DNA of 48,198 bases from Acidobacteriota bacterium (GTDB lineage: Bacteria > Acidobacteriota > Terriglobia > Bryobacterales > Bryobacteraceae). Location of the stretch: contig JANXMS010000392.1 in the NCBI GenBank assembly GCA_025354525.1, positions 1 to 48,198 on the forward strand. The letters run 5' to 3'. Under the pieces are notes generated by a model that saw only the letters and a list, made by a program, of their open reading frames with translations, had not been told where the DNA came from and made no database searches. Numbering within the stretch: the first letter of the stretch is position 1; each line of letters starts with the position of its first letter. Shown here piece by piece: positions 1 to 8,141 of the stretch. Both the position numbers and the translations under genes were made by a program.

Positions 1-62
1 ATGGCTTCCACCGCCACCTTAGCTTTCAAAGCCGGCGAGTGAGTCTTGCGTGTTCGAGGCAT
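1..62 (-). CDS. IS3-family transposase OrfA, N-terminal fragment
   Basis: The frame starts with ATG at 62-60 and runs off the window edge, giving about 20 residues that include RTRKTHSPALKAKVAVEA. This matches the start of IS3-family OrfA proteins, whose helix-turn-helix domain typically begins with a basic stretch followed by SPEFKAKVALEA. A Shine-Dalgarno GGAG lies at about 71-68, 5-6 nt before the ATG. OrfA normally binds the terminal repeats and is fused by frameshifting to the DDE recombinase OrfB, which would lie beyond the window. The call rests on a short N-terminus plus the terminal repeat. Confidence 0.7.
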   Translation of the reverse strand, partial: MPRTRKTHSPALKAKVAVEA

Positions 63-140
63 TGATTCTCCTTCATTTTCAATGCCCTCCTACACTTAAG
101 CAATAACCATTTTTGTGTCTAGTTTTTGGGGTCCACCACA
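1..140 (-). mobile_element. IS3-family insertion sequence, left end (partial)
   Basis: The minus strand from 140 downward begins TGTGGTGGACCCCAAAAAC, which resembles the terminal inverted repeats of the IS150 group of the IS3 family (TG start, run of C then A, then a GGACAC-like core). It is followed about 80 nt later by a start codon with a good ribosome binding site and an OrfA-like N-terminus. The element lies inside zorD: the zorD reading frame is recognisable up to about base 141 and turns into IS sequence afterwards. The other end of the IS and any target duplication are outside the window, so the exact junction (140 or a few bases either side) is inferred from the TG terminus. Confidence 0.8.
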
Positions 141-755
141 CCTCGCGCCATCAATATCACTCTTGCGCATATCAATCCGCAACCGATCGGGCGTCAGGAC
201 AACTGTTTTGCGGAGAAAGTCCGTAAGATCAGAATTGGCCGCTACCGCGAGAGCCCTAATTTTCGCCCATCCTCTGCGATTCAGGTCTGCCGTCCGGGAT
301 GATGCTGGTCGATTCCAAAATCCTGAAATCTCTTCCGCGAGTCTCCAGACGCCCTCGCTCAAAATGGCCACCCGCTTTCCAGCGGTGACGACGGCACCAA
401 CTCTGTCAACGTTTCCGGTGTGCTCGCGACCTTCAGCATCAATCCATCCGGCGATCACCACCGAGAAATCGCGGTCTGTGAGCGTCCCTCGGCTCGCAAG
501 TGAAAGGTGCCATTGATCGATTCCAGGTAGACCCAACAGCCCGATGCTTTGGGTGTCTTCCGACCTAACAAGCCGATAGAACTCGGACCATCTTAGGACG
601 TGACGGTCTACTTCCGTCTCGACGTAGCCTTCCTCTTCCAACTGGCGAATCAGCAGTGAAAGTTCGGAGGCCGGAAAGGCCGTTACGCTCTCGATTTGAG
701 GGGCGAGAGAAAACGCCACGCCATCTTGGTTCCATGAAACGCTCGTTTCTAACAT
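96..755 (-). pseudogene. zorD: ZorD, Zorya helicase/nuclease, N-terminal fragment cut by IS
   Basis: About 207 codons of genuine sequence are followed by 12 codons read from the IS (after about base 141) to a stop. Intact ZorD proteins are roughly 1,000 residues, with an N-terminal region, a SNF2-type helicase core and a C-terminal Mrr-like nuclease. Only the N-terminal region is present, ending around VVLTPDRLRIDMRKSDIDGAR, just before the helicase part expected from the family. No Walker A or DEAH motif is seen. Identification rests mainly on its position right after zorA-zorB-zorC. The ATG at 755 has no good ribosome binding site of its own and overlaps the stop of an 18-codon open frame (TAATG). 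The missing part may lie beyond the IS. Confidence 0.75.
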
Positions 756-811
756 TAGAGGGCTGCCTTGACTGCCGATTTGCTCTTCGATCGAACCGCG
801 GACCAGCGCAT
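755..811 (-). CDS. 18-codon leader ORF between zorC and zorD
   Basis: An ATG at 811-809 is preceded by a perfect AAGGAG (823-818) with 6 nt spacing. It opens an 18-residue basic peptide (MRWSAVRSKSKSAVKAAL) whose TAA overlaps the zorD ATG as TAATG. This is the best initiation signal in the zorC-zorD junction, yet it is out of frame with zorD. Either zorD is translated by reinitiation after this mini-ORF, or zorD originally started here and has a frameshift. No known family is recognised. Confidence is low because very short ORFs arise by chance. Confidence 0.35.
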   Translation of the reverse strand: MRWSAVRSKSKSAVKAAL

Positions 812-814
812 TCG

Positions 815-2494
815 TTACTCCTTGTGCCAGCCCCGATGCGTTTTTAGCTTAAACCCGAGCGCCTTGAGTTGGGCCACAACATGTTGGGGCTGCTCTTGGC
901 CGACTACCCAAAGCGCACCGCCGATCGGCCTACGATCTTCCACTTCAAGCTCGTTAGCCATCACAAATCGTTTCCATTCAGCACCGCTGAAGCTTCGTGC
1001 TCGTGAAAGTTGGGCAACGTCAGCTCCACGCGGCGCCTTCGCAGGCTTCCTTCCGAGGAACGGGAACATTTGATCGTCGAATTTCTGCTCCCAACTCTGC
1101 GCCGCCGAACTGATATGGTTCATCCTGGCCACAGCTATTGCCGGATCCTTCACTTTCAGTTCGCCAATCTCAACAAAAGCGCGGGCGCGACCGGATTGTA
1201 AAATATCAAGAAGCGACTCATCTAAAGCGCCCCACTTGAGGAGATAAAAGGCGTTCCCTTTCTCGCCAAATTCGACAGCCAAGTAGTTGCCGATTCGCAT
1301 AACGAACGCGTTGTTCCCGGCGGTGGTTTTCGTCAAGTCTAACAACCGACCTCTGGCACGAGACCGGAACTCATAAAAGGCAGCGCCGCGTCTAGACCGA
1401 GCATCCGTTCCAAGCGCAAACCACATGTCCTCGATAAAGGGTTCGTATCGAAGCCAGTAGTCAAGCCTTCTTGGGTCGCCCGTGCCGTCGTAGCTAAGCA
1501 GCAGGAAGAAATCCTCAATAAGTCGACGTTTCAGCCAGCCGTTAACCATCTCGCGGGCACGATCATCTGGTTTTCCGTTCGCATCCGTGACCCTTGAGTC
1601 CCACTTCGCCCTGTTTAGCCATGGATTTCCGATCGTGGATGTGGAAGCATCGCGCAAGGCCATGTTCTCTGGCCTATCGTTACATCCTCCGTACCGCGAG
1701 ACCAGTTGAGCCACACAGCGAATCCGTAACCGCTCACCGATCTTCACGCCGCCCTTGCCCATCGCCAATTCCAGAAGACTCGGTATTAGCAGCTTGAACT
1801 TATCGTCGTTGACTTTTACCGCTGCCCGAATGCGCGCGTAGACAGCCTCTTCCAACACCCAAGACTCTTGAGGTATCGCCAAGGCCTTCATCGCATCATT
1901 CAATCCAGACGAATCGCCGTTCAGCAGGGCCGCTCCGAACTTCTCACAAGGCTCGTCGCTCAACAATTGCACGTGGCGTGTCAGGTCGCCAAACCAAGGC
2001 GGCTTCGGTTCATTGGACAGCAAGATCCGTTGGCGCTCCGCGCGAAGCCACAAGCGAAGCTCCCCCCACCCCTGTACTGCAAGATCCGAGGCTTCGCCAG
2101 AGTAAATTGAAAACGTCCAGTAGCTCGACAACAGGGCCTGATAGCACCGAATTCGCCGCCGCACCTCTGTCTGAGCTTCAACGAGCTTGAACAGATGGCC
2201 GCGCGCCCAAACATCGGCAAGCACGCACCAGCCGCGCGAATTCGATACTCCTACACCAAGACAGACATACTTAAGGTTCCGAAGTCCCTCAATCTCGCTC
2301 GTCCGATGAAAGCTGTCAATGGCGGACATAATCGAGCGAGGATCGCCCGCTATACCCGCACTGCCGTGATCTCGCTGTACTCTTGCCAAGGCGCGAGAAA
2401 TTGGCGAAAGGTCTCGCCACCCTTCAGGTGCCCGAACAGCTTCAGCAAACGTTCGGGTGAGTCCGAGTTCCAAAGAGGTAAGTGCGTCGTTCAT
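815..2494 (-). CDS. zorC: ZorC, Zorya EH-signature protein
   Basis: ZorC is the cytosolic Zorya protein that acts with ZorD downstream of the ZorAB motor. The C-terminal half contains an EH_Signature-like region. Counting from the GTG at 2512, residues about 294-368 hold IGNPWLNRAKWD, then EMVNGWLKRRLIEDFF and GDPRRLDYWLRYEPFIEDMW, the pattern typical of this family. The preferred start is ATG at 2494, which overlaps the zorB stop as ATGA and gives 559 residues. A GTG at 2512 would add 6 residues but lacks a clear ribosome binding site. The length fits type I ZorC. The ATGA overlap indicates translational coupling with zorB. The gene ends 59 nt before zorD. Confidence 0.85.
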   Translation of the reverse strand: MNDALTSLELGLTRTFAEAVRAPEGWRDLSPISRALARVQRDHGSAGIAGDPRSIMSAIDSFHRTSEIEGLRNLKYVCLGVGVSNSRGWCVLADVWARGHLFKLVEAQTEVRRRIRCYQALLSSYWTFSIYSGEASDLAVQGWGELRLWLRAERQRILLSNEPKPPWFGDLTRHVQLLSDEPCEKFGAALLNGDSSGLNDAMKALAIPQESWVLEEAVYARIRAAVKVNDDKFKLLIPSLLELAMGKGGVKIGERLRIRCVAQLVSRYGGCNDRPENMALRDASTSTIGNPWLNRAKWDSRVTDANGKPDDRAREMVNGWLKRRLIEDFFLLLSYDGTGDPRRLDYWLRYEPFIEDMWFALGTDARSRRGAAFYEFRSRARGRLLDLTKTTAGNNAFVMRIGNYLAVEFGEKGNAFYLLKWGALDESLLDILQSGRARAFVEIGELKVKDPAIAVARMNHISSAAQSWEQKFDDQMFPFLGRKPAKAPRGADVAQLSRARSFSGAEWKRFVMANELEVEDRRPIGGALWVVGQEQPQHVVAQLKALGFKLKTHRGWHKE

Positions 2495-3216
2495 CTCGAA
2501 TCGTTGGGACACTTTGCATCTTCATCCCACGGGATTTCCCGCACCAGCTCGCGCTCCGCTCCTAAGTCCCTAAATTCCAATTTCAATTCCACGCGCCGCA
2601 TTTCTGCCGGGCTCTTTGAAACGGTATTAAAAGAGGATCCGCCCGCGAGAAAAAGGGTCCGGATTTGTCTGCGATCAGCGATTGCAAGCGAGTTTTCAGC
2701 TTGGGAATCCAGAAGAACGCAGAGGATTCGCTGGGATCGGAGAAAACTCAGATTCAAATTGTACAGGTACGAACCAACTTGGCTAGCGAACCCTTCAACG
2801 ACTACCCGTTTGAGCCACTGATCACAACTTTTGCGGCGAGCAACAACCAAAACCTTCGGAACAAAAGCGCGAACGAGCCGTTCCTGGTCGGAATCGAGCC
2901 GATGATCGTTGTTCTTGAATTCGGCCAGTGTGCCGAATTCAATGGAGTACCCCCTCAGGGAGATACCCTTGAACTCGTCGCGCTTGGTCAGGGCCTCAAC
3001 GTCGCTCAGGCAACTATTAATCGTCGACTGTCGTCCTTCACCCTTCTTCTGCATCGCCGCAATTCCCTGGGTAACCGCCATAAGCGCGACCGCCATAGCA
3101 ACCAAGAAAAGTACCATGAGCGCAGTCATTAAGTCAGAAAAGGAAATCCAGAATGGCTTCTCGGCCTCCTCCTTTCCGCCTTTCCCAGCTGATGCTTTGA
3201 TTCCAAACATGCTCAT
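2491..3216 (-). CDS. zorB: ZorB, MotB/OmpA-like Zorya motor subunit
   Basis: ZorB pairs with ZorA in an inner-membrane rotary motor driven by ion flow and is anchored to peptidoglycan. The 241-residue protein has a short cytoplasmic N-terminus, one membrane segment at about 29-50 (start FWISFSDLMTALMVLFLVAM) with Asp28 where MotB-type proteins carry the ion-binding aspartate, and a periplasmic OmpA/MotB-like domain at about 115-215 (VVVEGFASQVG, a central LSFLRSQRI, and late RRVELKLEF). It starts with ATG at 3216, overlapping the zorA stop as ATGA. A second ATG in frame at 3210 is an alternative. The type I layout ZorA-ZorB-ZorC-ZorD supports the assignment over a flagellar or Tol-Pal role. 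Confidence 0.9.
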   Translation of the reverse strand: MSMFGIKASAGKGGKEEAEKPFWISFSDLMTALMVLFLVAMAVALMAVTQGIAAMQKKGEGRQSTINSCLSDVEALTKRDEFKGISLRGYSIEFGTLAEFKNNDHRLDSDQERLVRAFVPKVLVVARRKSCDQWLKRVVVEGFASQVGSYLYNLNLSFLRSQRILCVLLDSQAENSLAIADRRQIRTLFLAGGSSFNTVSKSPAEMRRVELKLEFRDLGAERELVREIPWDEDAKCPNDSR

Positions 3217-5213
3217 CTCTTCTTTGGTGCTATCTCGTCTACGACGTCGCCGAGGTTTCTTATGGCTCCCGAGAGTAACTCGACCGCCTTCGAAAGCTCA
3301 TCCTGAAAGTGCCGATTGCTTTCACGCATCGTTTTTCCAACATTTTCTGCGAAGGATTCGTGGGATTTAACAAGCACTTCGGTAACGCCCTTGAGGTAGC
3401 TCTCGGACTGAGTCTGGGCCCTCGCAAGCTGGGAAGTCGCGGCTTCAATACGTCCAATCAATGCGGACGTCATGGAAGCATCTCGCTTCGCATTATCGAG
3501 GGTCACATTTAGTTCCGAGACCATCCGTGCGAACGTATCCCGGGTCTTGCCGTAGTCCTCCAACACCGCCTTGCTGCCATTCGTAGCCAATACCAACTGG
3601 CCAGCAGCCAACTTAATCGTCTCAACGGCTACGGTTGATGCCCGCATTGATTCCGAAACGCCCTGCCCGGCCTTTGCGAAGTCGGTCGCGGCGAGACATA
3701 GCGTCTCCGCTCCGGAGTTCATTCCCGTAATGGATTTGTCGGTGGCCGACGCTAGTCTTTCTACGGTTTCTTGTAGCGCCCTGTTCGTCTTAATTGATTG
3801 ATCGAGCAGCCGTTCTATATGAGCGGAAAGCGATCCAATCGCGCCTCCGGTGCTCTTCTCAAACCGTTCGTGGCGTTGGCCCTGAGATTCGGCTGAAGCT
3901 TCTGCCTGCTTTCGCAATTCCGCAACAACTCCCACGACTTGCTCGCCGACCGCGCCCAGAACTGCCTGCAATTGTTTCGACGATTCAGACTGCGACTCGG
4001 CAACCAGCGAGCGGACTTGCTCGACAAATGCTCCGGTTTGGTGGTTCATGGCCTGCTGCCGAGCCTCCATTGCTTCGAGCGACCGATTCAGCCGCTCCCC
4101 CATAGCATCGACCGCCCCGGTGCCAGCCTTGTCCATATTTGCAGCAAGCTGGCTAAACTGTAACGCGGTGGCATTCATTGACTCGCTGGTCCGCTGAAGG
4201 AGATCGGACATCCCTCGCATCTGCCCGCCGAACATCTCGCCCATCTGTGCCGAGAAGCTGGCGAGCACATCGGTGAGCATCCTATTCACCGCGTCCCCTT
4301 GATTTGCGCTTACTCCCCTGACAGCCTCGGAAATCGTTCTGATCGGTTCGCCCAAGCTATCCGCGATAGCCTTCCCTACGTCGACGGAAATCTGACCAGA
4401 CCGCACCGATTGGGCCGTGATCTGCTGTGTAGTCAACTCGGTCAATATCTGCTTAAGGTCGACCACCAGGGCGTCTTTCAAATGAGCCGACTGTGTGGCA
4501 GAAGTCTCTGAAGCCGTGACCAACCGCGCTAGATATTCCTCACCAGCACCCGTCGTAAAAAAGCTGTCGATCAGTTCGCAAAGTTCCTCCACCTGCCGAT
4601 AGCGACGAGTAACCGTTAACTTCTCAATGAATGTGATTGCTATCGCCAGTATGATCGCGGATGCCGACACGAGGAAAGCATGACCGACGGAATTGACTAA
4701 ATTGCGGAGCTGCTTTTGCGCTTCCGTTGGATCTAACGAGACACCGAATTGGTTCAGGCCAGAAATCAGCCCGGCGAAAGTGCCGATAATTCCGAGGCCG
4801 GTCAGAATCCCCGGCACGTGTTTGAAGTACTCGGAATGAAGTCGAGAGTCTATGATCGCCTGCTGGGTGAAATAAGTTCCGGCCGTCGCTGTCGCCCGCC
4901 ACTCAATAATCCTAGTCTGGCCAGAATCATCATCCCGTTTCTGTGGGTGGAGCGTTTTGATATATTCGTTCCAAAGCTGAAGCAAAAAGTGCTTCGTCAT
5001 CGCCTTCGACGCGAGCTCATCGAGGTCAATAATTTTTCCGATTGTCCTTTCCTTGACGCTTTTCAATGCGCCAATTGAGTCCTTCAGTTCCTTCGCTAGA
5101 TGCGCTGCTGGCATCACGAACCGCCGCAGAAAATCAAAGGAAATACCGAGCAGTAACGCTCCGACAATAGCGAGGTGCCAATAATCACCAATAAAGCTAG
5201 TTAAATCGCCCAC
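3213..5213 (-). CDS. zorA: ZorA, MotA/TolQ/ExbB-like Zorya motor subunit with long tail
   Basis: ZorA forms the membrane channel ring around ZorB and senses phage attack. In the 666-residue protein, membrane segments are visible at about 13-30, 133-153 (ILTGLGIIGTFAGLISGL, the MotA/ExbB signature helix) and 175-197. Residues about 240-666 form a long Ala/Glu/Gln/Ser-rich, largely coiled-coil tail with no enzymatic motif, as expected for the intracellular ZorA tail. The start is GTG at 5213 with a strong GAAGGAG 7 nt upstream. It heads the minus-strand operon zorA-zorB-zorC-zorD with ATGA overlaps. GC content is visibly lower than in the housekeeping genes at 9-12 kb, consistent with horizontal acquisition. 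Confidence 0.9.
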   Translation of the reverse strand: MGDLTSFIGDYWHLAIVGALLLGISFDFLRRFVMPAAHLAKELKDSIGALKSVKERTIGKIIDLDELASKAMTKHFLLQLWNEYIKTLHPQKRDDDSGQTRIIEWRATATAGTYFTQQAIIDSRLHSEYFKHVPGILTGLGIIGTFAGLISGLNQFGVSLDPTEAQKQLRNLVNSVGHAFLVSASAIILAIAITFIEKLTVTRRYRQVEELCELIDSFFTTGAGEEYLARLVTASETSATQSAHLKDALVVDLKQILTELTTQQITAQSVRSGQISVDVGKAIADSLGEPIRTISEAVRGVSANQGDAVNRMLTDVLASFSAQMGEMFGGQMRGMSDLLQRTSESMNATALQFSQLAANMDKAGTGAVDAMGERLNRSLEAMEARQQAMNHQTGAFVEQVRSLVAESQSESSKQLQAVLGAVGEQVVGVVAELRKQAEASAESQGQRHERFEKSTGGAIGSLSAHIERLLDQSIKTNRALQETVERLASATDKSITGMNSGAETLCLAATDFAKAGQGVSESMRASTVAVETIKLAAGQLVLATNGSKAVLEDYGKTRDTFARMVSELNVTLDNAKRDASMTSALIGRIEAATSQLARAQTQSESYLKGVTEVLVKSHESFAENVGKTMRESNRHFQDELSKAVELLSGAIRNLGDVVDEIAPKKR

Positions 5214-5927
5214 GACACTACTCCTTCACGTTCGAACACAGTCACCGCAGTATGTTCAGCCAGAAAGCTCCTCCGCGATTCATCCAACTTTGGAAGCCTA
5301 TAGCTTACTACACCGTCGCCTCCAATTTGTCCCGATGTATGCGGAAACTGGCCAAACGTCGCAGTTGTACACCGCCCCCGATGCCGAACCGAGTGCCGCT
5401 CGGCCAAGTGCGTCGCGCGTTCCTTCGCCGAAGCGCGAAGCTAGTCGGGAGCGACGGTGTTGACGTTGAGAAAGGAAACGAAGCGAGGCGACCGTTCCGG
5501 CCGACTTTTTGACGACTCACAGAACGCTTCCGTTCGCTTTGTTCTAACAGGCCGATAGGTGATATTCCCCGCAAGATGACATAAAAGCAGGGGCCACCGT
5601 CCAAGAACAGAAAATCATGGCGATCATCTAAACTACCGCCCTCGTAACCCAGGGCACCGCCACCCCGTCCGCCCCCCGGAAACGCCACTCATCAAGCAAA
5701 AATAGAGATTTTCCCGCGCCGAAATTGAGTCGTTCACAGATCATTCACATTTATTTTAGACCACTTAAGCCCATTGTTTACAACACACACCCACCACATC
5801 GGCCCCCTCCCCCCGCTCAATTCCTTGACGCCCCTCTGCTAGTTTTTTAGTGCGAAGGCGCTCTTCCCCATCTGCTGCTCACCAGCGATTCGGAACAGCG
5901 CCTTTTCCATTTCCAACGGAGAATCTT
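5214..5927. other. Intergenic region between divergent zorA and terminase-pair genes
   Basis: About 710 bp separate the zorA start from the plus-strand gene at 5928. Open frames here (for example 5308-5688 minus and 5201-5407 minus) have low-complexity or arginine-rich translations and no good start context, so they are not called. The stretch from about 5690 to 5800 is AT-richer than its surroundings. A TTGACG at about 5826 followed by AT-rich sequence is a weak promoter candidate for the plus-strand genes. No tRNA, attachment repeat or terminator hairpin was recognised. Confidence 0.5.
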
Positions 5928-6704
5928 ATGTCAACTCAACCAACGGATGAACTAAAACAGCGTCGCGCCGAAGCCTCTCGGCAAAACGGTCGCAAAAGCA
6001 AGGGACCTGTCTCGCCCGCCGGCAAATATCGCAGTTCAATGAACGCGATCACAACCGGTCTCCATGTCGAACTACACAAAGAGGACCTGCCGTCTTTCTA
6101 TAACTTGATCTCCACCGATGATCGAGAAGATTACCTCCGCGGTCTCCAAGCCCACTATCGAAAATTCAAGCCAGACTCCGAAGTCGAACAAGGCTATGTC
6201 CGGCGCATGACCTCCGAAATGTTCCAATTCGACCGAAATACGTCCCTCTATACAAGAGCCATGCAGGAAGAGTTAGACACCGTCTTGCGGGAGTATCCCG
6301 ATATCGACATGGACGCCCAGTTTCTCAACGGTCACAAACGGTCGATCACGCAGAGGGAATTTTTCCGCACCATCGAGCGCAACAAAAAAGCGCATCTCCA
6401 AGCTTACGAAAAACTGATGAAGCTCCTGGCGCAATCGAGAAAGCTGTTCCCGTTGCAGCCACCAGAACCCGTTGATATCTCCGCCGACTCGAATACCCTG
6501 GAGGACCCCGGGCCAACGCCGGAAGTTGTCGCCGAACTGCTGGGAATTGCCGACCAAGCCAAAAAGGAACCTAACTTTGTGCCGCCGGCCTATGTCCTCA
6601 ACTTCTTGGAAGATAAGGAGTTTATGCAACGTTTCGCCCCAAATTACGATGTTGCGGATTTGCTCGTCCGCTTCGGTCGGGTCAAGCCTCCGATTGCGGC
6701 CTAA
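5928..6704 (+). CDS. Small RxNGxxSxGP-type protein upstream of terminase
   Basis: A 258-residue hydrophilic protein begins at ATG 5928 with GGAG about 7 nt upstream. The open frame extends 26 codons further upstream but without a ribosome binding site. Residues about 18-46 carry SRQNGRKSKGPVSPAGKYRS followed by SMNAITTGL, a motif of the form RxNGxxSxGPxTxxGKxxSxxNAxxxGL. From general knowledge this is shared by many uncharacterised proteins of Acidobacteria, Planctomycetes and Verrucomicrobia. The rest is charged and helical, with no enzymatic motif. It ends 3 nt before the large terminase gene, so the two are surely co-transcribed; a small-terminase-like partner role is possible but unproven. 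Confidence 0.75.
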   Translation: MSTQPTDELKQRRAEASRQNGRKSKGPVSPAGKYRSSMNAITTGLHVELHKEDLPSFYNLISTDDREDYLRGLQAHYRKFKPDSEVEQGYVRRMTSEMFQFDRNTSLYTRAMQEELDTVLREYPDIDMDAQFLNGHKRSITQREFFRTIERNKKAHLQAYEKLMKLLAQSRKLFPLQPPEPVDISADSNTLEDPGPTPEVVAELLGIADQAKKEPNFVPPAYVLNFLEDKEFMQRFAPNYDVADLLVRFGRVKPPIAA

Positions 6705-6707
6705 GCC

Positions 6708-8141
6708 ATGCCGATTCCGTCTCCAACTCGAAAAACAATTCCCCGGGTACTCACCAAATGCCTGTCCGCGGCCACGGGTTCGCCCGATCTCGGCCTCTCC
6801 GACGACCCAGTAGCCTGGGCCCAAAAGGCGCTCAACTTCATAGCCGACCCCAAGCAAGCCGAGATACTCAGTTGCGCCGCTTCCCGGGTCATCGTCGTCA
6901 CCTCGCGCCAAGTCGGAAAAAGTACGATAGCGGCCCTGCGAGCTCTTTATCTGGCGCTCCGTCACGCCGGTTCCCTGATCCTCATGATCGGCCCCGTCGG
7001 CTCTCAAGCCGGCGAAATCCTCGGTAAAGCCACGCATTTCGCCGCCGAACTGGGCCTACCCATCCGAGGCGACGGCATCAACGAGCGGTCGCTCCAACTG
7101 CCCAACGGTTCCCGGCTCATCGCTCGACCCGCCGTGCCTCAGTCGCTCCGAGGTTACTCGCAAGCCCGCCTCATCATCGTCGATGAAGCCGCCTACGTCC
7201 CCGAAGCAACTTACCGAGCCATGTCTCCTATTTTGGCCACCGGAGACGGTTCCCTCTGGGTCATCTCGACCCCCAACGGACCCTCCGGCCGCTTCGCCGA
7301 ACTCTGGCACGATCTTACTAACGGTTGGACCCGATTTTCCATCCCCGCCGAGGAGTGCCCCCGACTCAGCCCAACTTTCCTAGCCGCGGAGCGCCGTCTC
7401 TACGGCGACATCTACTGCGCCCAGGAGTATAGTTGCCAATTCATCGCAGCCGGCCTGCAGCTACTAACCCGAGCCCAAATCACAGCGGCAATTATAACCA
7501 AACCAGCCGAAGTGCCCTTCCAACTTCGCGAGAAGACACGCATCTATCTCGGCCTCGACCTCGGCAAGCGGCAAGATCACACCGCCATCGTCGCTCTCGA
7601 ACTCCGCTGGCGTTTCGGCCCGAAGGACAACGTCACCCAAGGGATTGCCCAATATCCCACGCTGTTACTAAGTTACTCTACAAGGTTACCACTCGATACC
7701 GAAACCACTCGAATTCCCCAGTTAGTCCGCGACACGTTGCAGCGGTACTCTCCGACCTATGGCGAACCGCCCCGTATCGACAAGCTGTTAGTCGATGCCA
7801 CCGGCATCGGCCACACCATCGTCGAACTGATCCGCAAGAATCAGCCCAAGGCGCACGTCCAGCCCGTAACACTGACGAATGGCCACGTCGAAAGGCAACT
7901 CAAGGATAATTATCTTAGCCTGCCCCGGCCAGACCTGATCAACCGGCTCAAGATGGTCTTCGAACTCGGCAACATCCAGTTACTCGATTCCGCCCCCGGC
8001 TTCGTCGACATCGAGCGGGAGTTAGTCCAGTTCAAGCCCTCCGGCGACCAGCAGGAGCACGACGACCTCGTCATAGCCCTCTCCATGGCCGTCTGGCAAG
8101 CCGCCAAGGACTATCCAGACTTGCTCCGCGCCGCCGCCTGA
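6708..8141 (+). CDS. Phage-type large terminase (orphan)
   Basis: Large terminases package phage DNA using an N-terminal ATPase and a C-terminal RNase-H-like nuclease. In the 477-residue protein, Walker A is SRQVGKST (66-73), Walker B is LIIVDEA (155-161) and the coupling motif is STPNG (187-191). The nuclease acidic residues are Asp284 (YLGLDLGKRQDHT), Asp363 (LLVDATGIG) and Asp452/453 (HDDLVIALS). All key residues look intact, so both activities may be retained. No portal, protease or capsid gene lies nearby: the next gene is a DUF362 protein. Similar isolated terminase genes occur in Acidobacteria genomes. Alternatives are a prophage remnant, a gene-transfer-type relic or a domesticated nuclease. 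Confidence 0.85.
   Translation: MPIPSPTRKTIPRVLTKCLSAATGSPDLGLSDDPVAWAQKALNFIADPKQAEILSCAASRVIVVTSRQVGKSTIAALRALYLALRHAGSLILMIGPVGSQAGEILGKATHFAAELGLPIRGDGINERSLQLPNGSRLIARPAVPQSLRGYSQARLIIVDEAAYVPEATYRAMSPILATGDGSLWVISTPNGPSGRFAELWHDLTNGWTRFSIPAEECPRLSPTFLAAERRLYGDIYCAQEYSCQFIAAGLQLLTRAQITAAIITKPAEVPFQLREKTRIYLGLDLGKRQDHTAIVALELRWRFGPKDNVTQGIAQYPTLLLSYSTRLPLDTETTRIPQLVRDTLQRYSPTYGEPPRIDKLLVDATGIGHTIVELIRKNQPKAHVQPVTLTNGHVERQLKDNYLSLPRPDLINRLKMVFELGNIQLLDSAPGFVDIERELVQFKPSGDQQEHDDLVIALSMAVWQAAKDYPDLLRAAA

Follow-up and report, generated by a model that had tools for sequence, protein, structure and literature searches.

Terminases are known as packaging motors, and small terminases are helical proteins with an N-terminal DNA-binding part, the gene for which contains the pac site in some phages. 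Phage satellites (SaPI/PICI and cf-PICI) carry a small terminase of their own, and sometimes a large one (TerL), kept without a full phage. Gene transfer agents are described, in the part of PMC6854486 consulted, as having terminase genes in the chromosome without an infectious phage. The window that we analysed, 48,198 nucleotides of DNA from a member of the Bryobacteraceae (Acidobacteriota), contains a terminase gene pair that we compare here with these systems. We propose that the window holds one copy of a dispersed, terminase-derived, capsid-less mobile unit with a mechanism that we infer, a reading to which we give a probability of roughly 0.4.

When set against the TerS/TerL module of phages (T4 gp17 type), the unit is alike in a TerL that has both the ATPase and the RNase H-like nuclease with all catalytic residues, in a small gene directly upstream and in a motif, possibly a binding site, within this small gene. 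It differs in its many dispersed copies, in having no portal or HK97 capsid match in the source genome and most of the genus, and in a small protein that is unrelated to the phage one tested and absent from the viral collections searched. With SaPI/PICI and cf-PICI it shares a small terminase, sometimes accompanied by TerL, outside a full phage, but the unit has no integrase, replication or capsid-remodelling genes, measures 1-2.4 kb and is present in tens of copies in a single genome. Insertion sequences and transposons are likewise discrete, short, multi-copy units with a selected protein, a fixed end (here the left) and both solitary and longer forms, but the enzyme here is a terminase, and no known transposase, inverted ends or target duplication were found; indeed, the small protein and TerL are all that the unit encodes. 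Gene transfer agents also keep a terminase without an infectious phage, whereas the unit has no capsid/portal cluster and its copies are scattered. For every known type of mobile element with which we tested it, the unit lacks at least one defining trait. We found no description of the family in the literature searched, and the portions of PMC5900883 and PMC3174227 consulted make no mention of it.

Table 1. Features of the terminase unit and of the DNA to its left in the window
Feature	Position	Strand	Remarks
Whole terminase unit (pair type), left end to TerL stop	5733..8141	+	Similarity between paralogues extends from roughly the left-end motif to the TerL stop
Left-end motif TTCACAGATCATTCACATTTATTTT, start of the unit	5733..5757	+	Alignment of 43 copies from 5 genomes
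Leader, left-end motif to start codon	5758..5927	+	Common to copies of the subfamily; GGAG ribosome-binding site at its end
Small gene (258 codons) for an RxNGxKSxGP protein in the small-terminase position	5928..6704	+	ATG 5928 behind the GGAG box; stop 6702-6704; all-helical model
cis-motif in the small gene, codons 208-216	6549..6575	+	Core GCCAAAAANGAACC at 6558-6571; synonymous-site conservation; repeats in non-coding tails of other copies
TerL, terminase large subunit, 477 aa; ATPase and RNase H-like nuclease	6708..8141	+	ATG 6708; stop 8139-8141; 3-nt gap to the small gene; catalytic residues intact
ZorA, ZorB, ZorC and N-terminal ZorD piece	96-5213	other strand	PADLOC
ZorD frame	96-755	other strand	Runs into the 1-141 repeat; N-terminal piece of 219 aa against profiles of about 1000
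Repeat	1-141		At about a dozen other places in the genome, many at contig ends

A sequence-only reading of this DNA had described a TerL with complete motifs paired 3 nt from an RxNGxxSxGP-type protein, lying divergently beside Zorya with no portal or capsid gene near, and our open reading frames, profiles and residue checks bear out this description, as do the PADLOC matches on the other strand and the source genome, in which neither the PF04860 portal nor the PF05065 HK97 capsid is found. To the right of the pair lie genes for a DUF362 protein and Tex. The Zorya system of the window looks as if it had been cut by the repeat at the window's left edge or broken by the assembly.

The TerL matches the Pfam Terminase_6N model (5e-12, 46.4 bits, cut-off 22), the PHROG terminase large subunit (1.5e-37) and, in a PDB search, T4 gp17 (1.7e-11), with the C-terminal Terminase_6 model reaching 18.6 bits, below its cut-off of 22.6, and no match in PADLOC. 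It has a Walker A SRQVGKST (K71), a Walker B IIVDEA (D159/E160), an STP at 187-189 and the nuclease positions D284, D363 and D452/D453. Requiring coverage of TerL residues 80-440 and removing identical cores reduced 48 sequences to 25 distinct full-length TerLs, and the Walker and STP motifs with K71, D159, E160, D284, D363, D452 and D453 are kept in 25/25, including the aspartates whose conservation the sequence-only reading had singled out for checking. All phage relatives of TerL are distant, at 33% identity for Thermus and Meiothermus phages and 38% for the viral contig L217. In L217, the phage contig with the TerL closest to the family, a 174-aa cysteine-containing gene precedes TerL and is possibly a small terminase of another type; kinship of our small protein with this gene was rejected, as the profile does not match it.

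The small protein has no match in Pfam, NCBIfam or PADLOC and no convincing one in PHROG. Its structural model (pLDDT 80.9, pTM 0.51) is all-helical and matches no PDB fold at E 0.001; a pair of helices at the N terminus is followed by a long hairpin of helices at 85-173 and by a C-terminal part. Neither sequence nor fold relates it to known small terminases as judged from Pfam, PHROG, PDB folds and one phage candidate, and its likeness to them would lie only in its position and its predicted helical make-up. A known transposase or nuclease was likewise considered and rejected for want of any profile or fold match. With an all-helical model that resembles no solved fold, the small protein leaves the solitary units described below without a recognisable enzyme of their own. 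No relatives of the small protein were found by pattern search in the viral collection, nor in 50,697 phage records.

The source genome (7.3 Mb in 633 contigs) has 54 places similar to the small protein at E 0.1, a count that takes in distant relatives and fragments, and 12 TerL places at E 0.001. In the relatives set of 61 genomes, TerL matches occur in 23, including 19/19 of the genus, and small-protein matches in 22, while a small-protein profile run on 297 genomes across the phylum, with at most nine first-look candidates scored per genome, was positive in four, the source genome included. A scan of 84,980 species genomes yielded 222 relatives, of which the best 80 were kept; these are almost all Acidobacteriota metagenome assemblies, for the most part of Bryobacterales and in many cases from lakes, apart from isolated ones that bear the labels Verrucomicrobiales and Alphaproteobacteria. 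As TerL lies behind many of these best 80, the small gene and TerL belong together. A strong expansion of the unit is seen in this Bryobacteraceae genus.

Among 47 copies of the small gene, comprising the 43 of the upstream alignment and four of five distant copies (L032 was left out), TerL follows in 16, 26 are solitary as judged from 1 kb or more of DNA behind them, two are undetermined and three run off the contig. No other partner gene recurs behind the solitary small genes except at orthologous loci. The TerL subfamily of the window (at least 72% identity) occupies six places as told apart by their downstream DNA: window/L091, L077, L037, L038, L059/L108 and L092. Copies that are 85-95% identical elsewhere share stretches of 99-100% identity, and such long identical patches between diverged copies suggest gene conversion. 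Contigs break inside units in L072, L074, L077 and L091 of one genome (G006) and in L094-L098 of another (G009).

The left end is common to 43 copies from five genomes, where it typically reads TTCACAAGGTG(TTCA or AAAA) followed by AT-rich sequence, and it lies 108-222 bp before the start codon where measured. This alignment used 43 of 57 rows, leaving out nine TerL rows and five distant small copies (L028, L029, L030, L032, L102). With up to two mismatches, 24/43 copies match the 14-base form of the left end and the others are variants by eye, including the window copy at 5733; the left-end motif matches once in the window against zero expected. The exact first base of the unit is uncertain because some subfamilies share about 25-30 bp or a longer stretch further left. 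For 18 pairs of copies with a coding dS of 0.26-0.82, similarity at z of at least 4 is found between -220 and -100 in 15/18, and significant similarity between -420 and -220 in 0/18. On the 3′ side of the small stop, strong similarity continues for 100 bp in 11/18 pairs and is then gone, the exception being four pairs with TerL in both copies. Two of the 18 pairs, L017/L075 and L020/L080, are orthologues that share their right flank further out, and in both the stretch behind the gene is broken by local insertion or repeats. In pair copies the similarity ends at the TerL stop codon: for two TerL copies of G006, the last 120 codons have a dS of 0.27 and a dN of 0.007, and from 20 bp past the stop identity is 28%, the level of chance.

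Between copies of the small gene dN/dS is 0.07-0.13, and for TerL it is 0.08 between the window and L074 (codons 40-378) and 0.03 between L091 and L077 (last 120 codons). Solitary copies also keep the whole small reading frame, with a dN/dS of about 0.1. These comparisons show a unit that is discrete, dispersed and held by purifying selection. The unit, which has a fixed left end, a DNA motif within its small gene and an intact TerL in about a third of copies, has reached unrelated sites in several genomes of a single Bryobacteraceae genus. Hairpin-like palindromes occur at the right end of one solitary subfamily (CACACCCGAAGTGTG) and of another (TTCAC-AAG-GTGAA); hairpins at unit ends were set aside, since single-strand folding was no better than that of shuffles.

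Within the small gene, codons 205-215 have a synonymous conservation far above that of most of the gene, for example GAC in 34/35, AAA in 38/40 and GAA in 42/44 copies; the absolute size of the z values is inflated by shared ancestry, so that it is the contrast between codons that counts, and a few other codons stand out too. The core GCCAAAAANGAACC, with at most one mismatch, has 57 matches in 694 kb around the copies, 37 of them in the small gene, 16 on the same strand within 3 kb behind it and four in gene pieces at contig edges, with none elsewhere in the 694 kb. Across the whole source genome there are 13 matches to the core as against one for the reversed control. We infer that the motif is a putative binding or processing site. 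Decayed tandem repeats of the gene's 3′ part, with periods of about 200-310 bp, stand behind the small gene in several copies, and in the array of L022 the motif is among the best-kept parts. In the source genome such arrays lie directly behind the gene or at contig edges in L022, L020, L034, L023, L024 and L036, and at one orthologous locus the tail is present in several tandem copies in G000 and in one in G006. The tandem tails are probably the product of independent amplification at many copies.

At the place of the window pair, five other genomes carry DUF362 and not the pair, DUF362 being immediately preceded by two other conserved genes, and four fetched genomes have Tex without the pair, with DUF362 missing or a remnant. 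A search for empty sites by joined flanks found one presence/absence locus, L105, and no base-exact junction. Here G017 has 853 bp with the unit where G015 and G016 have 37 bp; the unit is also present in G001, and other inserts are found in G009 (3.5 kb) and G010 (5.3 kb), the insert of G010 containing a TerL fragment and, by eye, a transposase-like open reading frame. The exact ends at L105 are blurred because the left boundary coincides with the end of a coding gene. At the site of L081 the right flank is kept in six genomes without the unit, and there is no common left flank.

We compared the flanks of orthologous copies in different genomes, defined as those in which similarity extends beyond the unit, many other rows sharing TerL only. 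In 8/8 orthologous pairs, six of which have left flanks longer than 0.5 kb, colinearity is lost on the left and kept on the right for kilobases. For L017/L075 0/1523 bp align on the left and 5683/6005 on the right, for L092/L103 0/5740 and 1106/6791, and for L084/L093 0/2276 and 5191/6559. In L093/L106 similarity starts at the left end, with nothing in the 6 kb leftward of it, L025/L089 differ by about 0.5 kb of extra DNA exactly at the left end and L035/L079 by 5.75 kb of extra DNA at the unit's left boundary, while the short left flanks of L020/L080 and L024/L085 align over 0/418 and 0/334. In L025/L089, L093/L106, L020/L080, L092/L103 and L035/L079 the break coincides with the left end to within tens of bases, and in the other three pairs it lies between the start codon and -260. 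The L105 locus is the exception, in that the left flank is kept and the unit itself is variable. Left-side breaks run the risk of assembly errors at repeats, but their position is at the unit's diverged end rather than in the near-identical middle. A simple insertion of other mobile elements may also account for them, which would count against the mobile unit.

At least seven copies, the window included, have a PADLOC-recognised protein within 5 kb to their left: Zorya at the window, YhcG/PDC-S02 at L092 and L089, AbiEii at L109, a type I methyltransferase at L100, a CRISPR-associated CorA-like protein at L026 and Cmr1 at L023. Proteins of the toxin-antitoxin type lie at the same distance, namely HepT with a nucleotidyltransferase left of L035 and PIN left of L088. 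In bulk scans of 115 of 136 left-flank open reading frames and 115 of 126 right-flank ones, reduced to 112 by three L084 rows at its other unit, PADLOC gave 176 families on the left and 111 on the right, families and not genes being counted. Among the families listed, the Pfam families with at least two members included YhcG, HepT and PIN on the left and were mostly metabolic and surface families on the right, where some PADLOC names occur as well. An enrichment of defence genes left of the units is thus suggestive and a lead to follow. A PHROG scan of the same 115 left and 112 right open reading frames found, among the families listed, two integrase families with one right-flank member each and no recurrent satellite module of integrase, replication and capsid-hijack genes. 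At L079, 5.75 kb left of the unit, there is by eye an open reading frame resembling a DarG-type macro-domain antitoxin, on DNA that is absent from the orthologous site of the source genome.

The model that we favour for the capsid-less mobile unit is as follows. The small protein would act as a small terminase that binds its own DNA at the left end and/or the 3′ motif, and would call a TerL, either that of its own copy or, for solitary units, that of pair copies in trans. TerL would then cut the chromosome at the left end of the unit, and the cut together with the translocating motor would lead to the unit being copied or joined elsewhere. On the far side of the cut, neighbouring DNA would be exchanged, and it is this proposed exchange that would make the DNA of the left flank turn over fast. 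Several observations count against the mobile unit: no terminal inverted repeats, target-site duplication or base-exact empty site were found, TerL is missing from 26/47 copies, and the small-protein profile does not match one phage small-terminase candidate. Furthermore, no whole copies above 95% identity along the unit were seen that would have spoken for present-day activity. The further step, in which the terminase is the engine of the capsid-less element and each unit a hotspot on one side of which defence and toxin-antitoxin genes collect, we regard as unlikely. If true, spread by a capsid-less terminase would give the machinery of mobile DNA a new class of enzyme, explain a fast-changing part of large Acidobacteriota genomes and offer a testable path by which a packaging nuclease could come to rearrange genomes.

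In the nearest rival the terminase does its normal job. Each copy would be a packaging cassette made up of a small terminase, a pac-like site of its own and in some cases TerL, and would direct an incoming helper phage or particle-forming system to package the DNA on one side, after the manner of phage satellites (PICIs, SaPIs) and lateral transduction; directional packaging and recombination would have left the one-sided turnover as their trace. The unit indeed has no genes other than packaging genes, and its DNA motif is placed within the small gene like the pac site of some phages. The turnover is one-sided and the left flanks often hold defence genes, which would fit with the report, in the part of PMC12829572 consulted, that lateral transduction moves such genes. 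Were it correct, the units would be a chromosomal source of directional transduction that exports neighbouring DNA. Packaging by itself, however, does not place a 1-kb unit at many sites, the viral contigs and phages searched yielded no relative of the small protein, and virion genes are scarce; we consider this explanation rather unlikely. Our search for such genes covered the PF04860 portal and the PF05065 HK97-type capsid, two models that both match in 4/14 control genomes, and found each in 3/19 genomes of the genus. With TerL present in all 19, the pair is not regularly part of complete prophages, and a prophage remnant was rejected on these counts together with purifying selection and the defined ends. 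Decayed terminase genes left over from prophages beside chance neighbours, a view to which the bona fide phage type of TerL and its distant phage relatives lend something, are in fact already contradicted by the intact frames and active sites, the low dN/dS (0.03-0.13) and the many copies without TerL; the copies are not randomly decayed, and we hold this origin to be extremely improbable.

A possible role in host defence was part of the sequence-only reading, which suggested a domesticated function, perhaps mobile or defensive, for a pair that lies beside Zorya. Its mobile half fits the multi-copy, discrete units that are present or absent between species, and domestication fits a TerL under purifying selection without a phage, but a special link to Zorya fell away, as Zorya is found at 0/140 other fetched loci and such a partnership was rejected on this ground. 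The pair might still be anti-phage, as a nuclease or a decoy small terminase placed in defence islands such as the Zorya locus, and the intact nuclease and ATPase, Zorya beside the window copy and PADLOC proteins left of six other copies are in its favour. We nevertheless think this very unlikely, given that neither protein itself matches PADLOC, that some PADLOC matches lie on the right side too and that many copies sit between ordinary genes. It is decidedly unlikely, if less so, that the units are passengers, that is, gene duplicates moved by IS elements, REP-like palindromes or repeat recombination and kept for a host job. REP-like palindromes close to several units and the signs of gene conversion between diverged copies would suit such movement, but the same left end is present in all aligned subfamilies, most copies have no palindromes at their ends, and a host job would not obviously need tens of scattered copies with fast-changing neighbours.

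The REP-like palindromes near several units have the sequence GGGGCATCGAGCCCC. Those of the form GGCGGGGCATCGAGCCCCGCC stand in tandem at L025:250-700, recur at L023, L089 and L086, and lie close to many units.
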